Shown one piece after another: positions 16,085 through 17,858 of a stretch of DNA of 64,000 nucleotides. Source of the stretch: Anaerolineae bacterium (GTDB taxonomy: Bacteria; Chloroflexota; Anaerolineae; 4572-78; J111); the NCBI GenBank assembly GCA_022071955.1, contig JAJVIM010000020.1, positions 62,001-126,000 on the forward strand, written 5' to 3'. How positions within the stretch are numbered: position 1 is the stretch's first letter; every line of letters begins with the position of its first letter. The translations under genes were made by a program, and so were the position numbers. The notes beneath the pieces were generated by a model. That model saw only the letters and a list, made by a program, of their open reading frames with translations. It ran no database searches and was not told the DNA's origin.

Positions 16085-16245
16085 ATATAAATTTTCCCCT
16101 CACCCCCTACCCCCCTCTCCCAGCGGGAGAGGGGGATTCTTTTTTGAGGTGAGGTTTTGGGCGGCAACGCCGCCCAAAACCTCACCTCTTTCAAACTTCC
16201 CCTCCCCACAAAGTGGGGAGGGGGTAGGGGGAGGGGTAAAAGATA
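16085..16245. repeat. compound palindromic repeat element, copy 1
   Basis: A 160-bp structure lies in the leuS 5' leader. Its centre is a perfect 20-bp inverted repeat with a 3-base loop (16146-16165/16169-16188, core TTTTGGGCGGC AAC). Each side has a GC-rich hairpin (CTCTCCCAGCGGGAGAG left; CTCCCCACAAAGTGGGGAG right). The outer ends are near-identical inverted C-rich tracts of about 28 bases. The same design recurs at 27640-27800. No ORF is inside. It resembles a MITE or a large REP element. Confidence 0.7.
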
Positions 16246-16308: not shown

Positions 16309-16336
16309 AAAAAAGCCGGTCATCCCGACCGGCTTT
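16309..16336 (-). terminator. attenuator-type terminator upstream of leuS
   Basis: On the minus strand the stem AAAGCCGGTC/GACCGGCTTT with loop GGGAT is followed by a T run. It lies about 300 bases before leuS and 20 bases after the leader-peptide stop. The segment CGGGATG spanning its loop is exactly complementary to CATCCCG inside the leader peptide's codons 32-34 (16381-16389), so an alternative antiterminator can form. Confidence 0.75.
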
Positions 16337-16356
16337 GTATGCAAAGACGTGCTGCG

Positions 16357-16482
16357 TTATCCCCCGCAGGGGAGGAACCGCCGGGATGGATATTCAATGA
16401 AGCCACTAAGGTTTTCGGGCAGGGCCAACCGCAGTTGCCGGAGCACATATATGCTGATGTGAATACCCTGATTGCGCTTCAT
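16357..16482 (-). CDS. Leu-rich leader peptide of a leuS attenuator (putative)
   Basis: A 41-codon frame begins with ATG at 16482 and ends with TAA at 16357. It encodes MKRNQGIHISIYVLRQLRLA and continues LPENL: five Leu (residues 14, 17, 19, 21 and 25) in twelve residues, four of them in the first eight, preceded by several Ile and a Val. The peptide ends PSRRFLPCGG. Only a weak ribosome site is seen (GGGATTGAG). The stop is 20 bases before an intrinsic terminator whose loop can instead pair with codons 32-34. A ribosome stalled on the Leu codons would leave that segment free and favour read-through into leuS, whereas a ribosome reaching the stop would cover it and allow termination. This is classical attenuation logic, inferred from sequence; no homologue is known to me. 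Confidence 0.55.
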   Translation of the reverse strand: MKRNQGIHISIYVLRQLRLALPENLSGFIEYPSRRFLPCGG

Positions 16483-16547
16483 GTCTCAATCCCAACGATT
16501 TTACTGTGTTACGGTCAATTCGCCAAAATGTTGGTTATGTGACGCCT

Positions 16548-16576
16548 ATTCTACCACAAACCTTACCGGCTGTCGA
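16548..16576 (-). promoter_or_regulatory. sigma-70-type promoter of the leuS leader
   Basis: On the minus strand TCGACA (16576-16571) and TAGAAT (16553-16548) are separated by 17 bases, each one base from consensus. Transcription would start near 16541, just after the ilvE stop and about 60 bases before the leader peptide. A second, weaker pair (TTGGCG-N17-TAAAAT, -10 at 16503-16498) lies downstream. Confidence 0.6.
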
Positions 16577-17623: not shown

Positions 17624-17697
<74 letters not shown>

Positions 17698-17785
17698 GGA
17701 TGTTCAATTATTAATTATCAATTAGAAATTATCAATTACAACATTTTTGTTCATTGATAATTGTTCATTGGTAATTGTCTTGTGG

Positions 17786-17858
17786 TGGAGCTGAGGGGAT
17801 TCGAACCCCTGGCCTCGACAGTGCGATTGTCGCGCTCTCCCAGCTGAGCTACAGCCCC
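17786..17858 (-). tRNA. tRNA-Ala(CGC)
   Basis: A 73-base minus-strand cloverleaf nearly identical to the neighbouring tRNA-Ala in acceptor, D and T arms. The anticodon stem is CGACA/TGTCG and the loop ATCGCAC gives anticodon CGC (codon GCG). CCA is not encoded. A strong promoter lies just upstream at 17875-17902. Confidence 0.97.

Follow-up and report, generated by a model that had tools for sequence, protein, structure and literature searches.

A predicted leader-peptide attenuator upstream of leuS in one family of Anaerolineae, at a locus where sister families carry a leucine T-box

In many Chloroflexota, the leucyl-tRNA synthetase gene leuS, or an ilvE-leuS pair, stands behind a T-box. The window analysed here, which is the whole 64,000-nt stretch of an Anaerolineae contig, carries leuS on the minus strand (16010-13461, 849 aa) with an ilvE-like aminotransferase gene (17504-16581) upstream and no detectable T-box between them. 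The question is what controls leuS at this locus. The preliminary description read the interval between ilvE and leuS as an amino-acid-type attenuator, and the comparative data (conserved ORF, Leu codons, and alternative pairing) strongly support that reading. We believe that positions 16576-16309 are probably a ribosome-mediated transcription attenuator of leuS, with a probability of roughly 0.87 as judged from the comparison of related genomes.

All parts of the leader lie on the minus strand. It begins with a sigma-70-type promoter (16576-16548) composed of TCGACA, a 17-nt spacer ending in TG-N, and TAGAAT, which matches 10 of the 12 consensus bases and has the extended TG. The leader-peptide ORF (16482-16357) has 41 codons and a stop and encodes MKRNQGIHISIYVLRQLRLALPENLSGFIEYPSRRFLPCGG, with Leu at residues 14, 17, 19, 21, and 25 and a sixth at 37. 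Codons 14-25 form the putative control-codon cluster LRQLRLALPENL (16443-16408), with the Leu codons CTC, CTG, TTG, CTG, and CTT; the last of these, codon 25 (16410-16408), is the invariant CUU discussed below. Region 2, the predicted 5' strand of the antiterminator (CATCCCGGC-GGTT, 16388-16376), is located within the ORF and starts 22 nt past the start of the CUU codon. A small C/G-rich hairpin (16375-16361), predicted from the consensus fold of nine leaders, separates region 2 from region 3, and the stop codon lies just 3' of this hairpin, as it does in all leaders. Region 3 (AAGCCGGTCGGGATG, 16335-16321) comprises the 5' arm and loop of the terminator and is the alternative partner of region 2. 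The intrinsic terminator (16336-16309, hairpin 16336-16312), recognized by a terminator scan and by its conservation, consists of AAAGCCGGTC-GGGAT-GACCGGCTTT with a T-run and begins 20 nt past the ORF stop. The near-consensus promoter, the 41-codon ORF with five Leu in twelve codons, and the terminator 20 nt after its stop were thus all present as first described.

Taken singly, the window sequence gives weak evidence: its folding z-score is -1.45, and its leader has Leu at 6 of 41 codons against about 10% expected from the neighbouring genes. The leader stands far above chance because it is conserved in ten distinct leaders. LeuS homologues were taken from 60 related genomes, mostly drafts or metagenome assemblies of varying quality, and the DNA upstream of their genes was compared. 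A covariance model built from nine aligned leaders gave one strong match per genome in 11 of the 12 genomes of the window's family (rough E-values of 1e-14 to 1e-22), so that the element is present in 10 of the 11 other members. The leaders of G001, which belongs to the same genus, and G011 had been left out of model building and were recovered at E-values of 4e-18 and 2e-16, respectively. When 384 other Anaerolineae genomes were searched (396 in all), only chance terminators were found outside the family. Possible extra copies were also considered; the weaker matches inspected (E 1e-5 to 1e-2) were ordinary terminators beside unrelated genes.

The attenuator precedes leuS at every match whose contig permits checking; the contig of G001 ends just past the leader. 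In G011 (L161, G011:C60:8500-13000), the distance between attenuator and leuS is about 2.6 kb. The LeuS proteins of the family are 77-86% identical, and the carriers of the attenuator form one LeuS clade (SH-aLRT 99). The twelfth family genome, G004, has no leader and its LeuS belongs to another clade, which probably reflects a replacement of the gene that also removed the leader. The LeuS of G004 (L031) and that of G019 (L032) from a sister family, both of a different clade, were apparently acquired horizontally.

The related leaders, whose comparison the preliminary description had proposed, carry both the ORF and its Leu codons. Homologous ORFs of 35-48 codons occur in 11 of the 12 family genomes; every one shares its frame with the invariant CUU and ends 51-57 nt ahead of the end of the aligned T-run. 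Over the 12 codons up to and including the CUU, Leu accounts for 48 of 120 codons in the ten distinct leaders, while the other two frames give 18 and 3. Shuffling the residues within each peptide 20,000 times gave a mean of 23.5 and a maximum of 39. The reading frame is kept as well: the alignment gaps in the leaders cancel to multiples of three, and the stop follows the CUU at a distance of 14-17 whole codons even where gaps of 5+1 and 2+1 nt occur. The codons of the cluster (CUU, CUC, CUG, UUG, UUA, and CUA) vary in order, which indicates that the protein is kept and not the RNA.

The position of codon 25 is CTT in 11 of 11 leaders and is the only invariant residue besides Met1. CUU makes up 33 of the 82 Leu codons in the leaders versus 2 of 421 in the leuS genes of the family. 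This preference is particular to leucine, since T is the third base in 59% of CTN codons in the leaders and in just 14% of their other fourfold codons. Attenuators typically use rare codons for the amino acid that they sense. The nucleotides CCUU are invariant in the leaders, and the AGU after CUU is nearly so: CUUAGU occurs in 7 of 11 leaders (16410-16405 in the window) and CUUAGC in another. A pairing partner for CUUAGU was sought in the leaders and none was found. Two structures around this motif were tried and rejected. The pairs of a hairpin with a UUAGU loop around the invariant codon are not kept between leaders, and mimicry of a tRNA-Leu anticodon loop (CUUAGU resembling a UAG loop) has no structural support.

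The terminator is kept in all eleven leaders, and two of its stem pairs show compensatory change. The preliminary description proposed nine pairs, one of them G-U, between CATCCCGGC and GTCGGGATG across the terminator loop. These pairs were confirmed, whereas the span given for the upstream strand, codons 32-34, was inexact: it runs from base 2 of codon 32 to base 1 of codon 35. Duplex folding lengthens this pairing in the window to 13 pairs with one G bulged. In 7 of the 11 leaders, the antiterminator has 11-14 pairs, and in the remainder 9-10. Region 2 starts 18-26 nt past the start of the CUU codon in all leaders except L008, the weak case, in which the best duplex lies in another register and 180 of 1000 shuffles are as low in energy.

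Covariation was looked for in both stems and is limited, coming as it does from few sequences of one family: one antiterminator pair is supported, and 3 of the 14 pairs predicted for the two short hairpins of the consensus fold changed on both sides. The supported pair, P6, occurs as C-G and as U-A in five leaders each and as C-A in the eleventh; its loop base has no partner inside the terminator, and it changed at least twice on the LeuS tree. Pairs P7 and P9 are mismatched in some leaders. A classical helix between the 5' untranslated region and region 2 was also considered and set aside, as it is strong in L006, L010, and L116 and at shuffle level in L009, L011, and L124.

The effect of a ribosome was modelled by masking. 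With the ribosome placed at the CUU codon and the last terminator arm not yet made, the antiterminator appeared in the minimum-energy fold of 10 of 11 leaders; in L010 it was reduced to four pairs, and in L008 it was absent. Once the last arm was present, the terminator was the more stable structure in 10 of 11 leaders. The antiterminator is thus favoured first and the terminator once it is complete, so the order of events matters, as in classical attenuators. It had been suggested that a ribosome reaching the stop codon would hide the antiterminator segment. This is not literally so: region 2 ends 17 nt ahead of the stop, and a ribosome terminating there would cover at most the last bases of that region. 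With the mask at the stop codon, the antiterminator was still allowed before synthesis of the last arm, and the terminator won in the full fold. With so little of the antiterminator strand covered at that point, termination would need steric blocking or coupling.

We propose the following course of events. Transcription of the leader would begin at about 16541, and a ribosome would start on the 41-codon ORF. Several leader start codons, including that of the window, have a weak Shine-Dalgarno sequence. When charged tRNA-Leu is scarce, the ribosome would stall within the cluster of Leu codons and get no further than the CUU of codon 25. With its leading edge short of 16388, region 2 would be free to pair with region 3; the terminator would not form, and RNA polymerase would continue into leuS. 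With enough charged tRNA-Leu, the ribosome would cross region 2 and reach the stop close behind the polymerase, either masking region 2 during synthesis of the terminator or acting as a wedge between regions 2 and 3. A ribosome sitting at the stop on the small hairpin may hold these two regions apart. The terminator would then form, and transcription would stop near 16309. The parts of the leader, its frame, Leu enrichment, use of rare codons, alternative, partly covarying pairing, and restriction to leuS are observations; translation of the ORF, stalling, coupling of transcription and translation, and regulation by leucine are what we infer from them. The chief input would be tRNA-Leu(GAG), which reads CUU and CUC. 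This tRNA was found in the near-complete relative G006; the class II tRNAs examined in the window's genome did not include it. If this is correct, the invariant rare CUU amounts to a sharp prediction of the sensed tRNA.

The ORF might act in a non-classical way, by Rho-dependent polarity or nascent-peptide arrest, with the hairpins being secondary. Such control would suit an ORF that crosses region 2 and stops beyond it, a 5' untranslated region able to pair with region 2 in some leaders, and a C-terminus with some conservation (PSRRLP..G in several members). We consider it very unlikely, as every member has kept a strong intrinsic terminator, the peptide shows little conservation apart from Leu25, unlike arrest peptides, and the rare CUU codons point to decoding and not to peptide sequence.

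In the second alternative, leucine or tRNA-Leu would be bound directly by the leader, acting as a riboswitch or divergent T-box, and the Leu-rich frame would be a by-product of a conserved RNA around CUUAGU. The invariance of CCUU and near-invariance of CUUAGU would fit such an RNA, as would the T-boxes that control the same locus in sister families. An Rfam scan of the window and the other leader-bearing loci, in agreement with the initial failure to find a T-box consensus, detected no T-box (RF00230; Stem I, GGTGGNACCGCG antiterminator) down to an E-value of 0.01. No other cis-regulatory family of Rfam matched above its gathering score; a sub-threshold SorX match spans only the hairpin and terminator. 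The consensus fold consists of two short hairpins and has no aptamer-like core. Together with the varied order of Leu codons in the cluster and the frame-preserving gaps, these results make an RNA sensor of this kind slightly less credible still than control by Rho or by an arrest peptide.

Among nine leaders scanned, eight have a promoter of 10-11 of 12 consensus bases at the equivalent place, and the ninth has TATAAT only. The preliminary description had raised the contrary case, a start of leuS transcription downstream of the terminator; in 7 of 9 loci, including the window, the interval from terminator to leuS has no promoter-like site, and such a site is present in L009 and L011. That the hairpin at 16336-16309 is a plain terminator of ilvE, with an accidental ORF and a leuS promoter of its own downstream, is similarly improbable: the hairpin directly follows ilvE in the window and several relatives, the single-genome z-score is modest, and two loci have the downstream site just mentioned, but the element stays by leuS where the upstream gene is not ilvE (L008, L009, L012, L021, and L116), has a conserved promoter of its own, and conserves ORF, frame, and Leu cluster together. 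A palindromic element of about 150 bp, a MITE-like dispersed repeat with about 40 copies in the genome, occupies 16090-16240 between the attenuator and leuS.

Upstream of ilvE in the window are two minus-strand tRNA genes, tRNA-Ala(CGC) (17783-17858) and tRNA-Ala(GGC) (17624-17697). Both are also found upstream of leuS in most T-box-bearing Chloroflexota, and this synteny is shared with their T-box-leuS locus. In the sister families f3 (G013 and G017) and f2 (G018), the order is tRNA-Ala, a T-box enclosing the second tRNA-Ala, ilvE, and leuS. G019 (f3) has the same T-box-ilvE-leuS order with a LeuS of another clade. The specifier context of these T-boxes is GAACUCG in f3 and AAACUCG in G018, which gives CUC, a Leu codon. 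Most genomes of the window's family still have the tRNAs and ilvE together; in this family the attenuator precedes leuS, and a T-box was not found. Neither device was detected in the f2 genomes G012, G014, and G022. Most simply, the T-box would have been lost and the attenuator acquired at the root of the window's family. More specifically, an exchange of sensors may have taken place, in which a Leu T-box with a CUC specifier and nested tRNA-Ala before ilvE-leuS was lost and a CUU leader arose directly before leuS, while the tRNA-Leu(GAG) input and the leuS output were kept; we give this scenario an even chance. Both devices use codons read by tRNA-Leu(GAG) and may sense the same tRNA.

The possible exchange of a T-box would be the part of most interest to specialists. 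It would be a clear case of leader-peptide attenuation occupying the syntenic place of a T-box of sister families. The window's genome has five T-boxes elsewhere, at valS, serS, trpE, an amino-acid permease gene, and thrS, as named by eye from the protein sequences. Since T-boxes are kept at valS, serS, thrS, and trpE, both kinds of device would coexist in one cell and could be compared directly. The (ilvE-)leuS T-box of Chloroflexota (RF00230) shares with the leader the locus and gene, a choice between terminator and antiterminator, and, through CUC, the presumed tRNA-Leu(GAG) input. The T-box senses the tRNA directly without translation; no T-box match was found in the leaders described here.

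Among aminoacyl-tRNA synthetase genes, leader-peptide attenuation is known for pheST of E. coli. Generally, the gamma-proteobacterial pheST (pheM) leader follows the same logic, with codons for its own amino acid before a synthetase operon; it concerns Phe in another phylum, and the present leader concerns Leu. The enterobacterial leuL leader similarly relies for control on consecutive Leu codons, some of them rare, but governs biosynthesis, while the leader here precedes leuS. A textbook leader of the trp type stops before or at the start of region 2, whereas the ORF here reads through it. For leuS itself, attenuators have been predicted in Streptomyces avermitilis and S. coelicolor (Seliverstov et al. 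2005, PMC1262725), and pheST is named in the same paper. The Streptomyces cases share the gene, a leader peptide with Leu codons, and antiterminator and terminator hairpins. Compared by description, they differ in phylum, and the present case adds frame and codon statistics from ten distinct leaders, an invariant rare CUU, and a sister-family T-box at the locus. Leader-peptide attenuation of a synthetase gene is thus precedented, by pheST and by the Streptomyces leuS prediction. A literature search found no report of ribosome-mediated or leader-peptide attenuation in Chloroflexota. If the present reading is true, the Chloroflexota would join the phyla having ribosome-mediated attenuation.

A separate observation was made on the T-boxes themselves. 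In many Chloroflexota, a complete tRNA-Ala(GGC) gene sits inside the CUC T-box of leuS or ilvE-leuS, between Stem I and the antiterminator. Such loci are L067:2239-2622, L081:2473-2829, L075:2590-2928, L069:2286-2621, L050:1970-2280, L098:2676-2958, L030:1138-1419, and L029:4012-4374, as well as L175, L176, L178, and L182. No report of a T-box with a nested tRNA was found in the literature search. Processing of the nested tRNA-Ala would split the riboswitch in two. As assigned by the positions of specifier and tRNA, the tRNA-Ala is nested in about 28 loci, including those of Ktedonobacteria, and lies just 5' of Stem I in about 12 Anaerolineae. Several of the tRNA-nested T-boxes exceed the Rfam gathering score for T-boxes with the tRNA inside.
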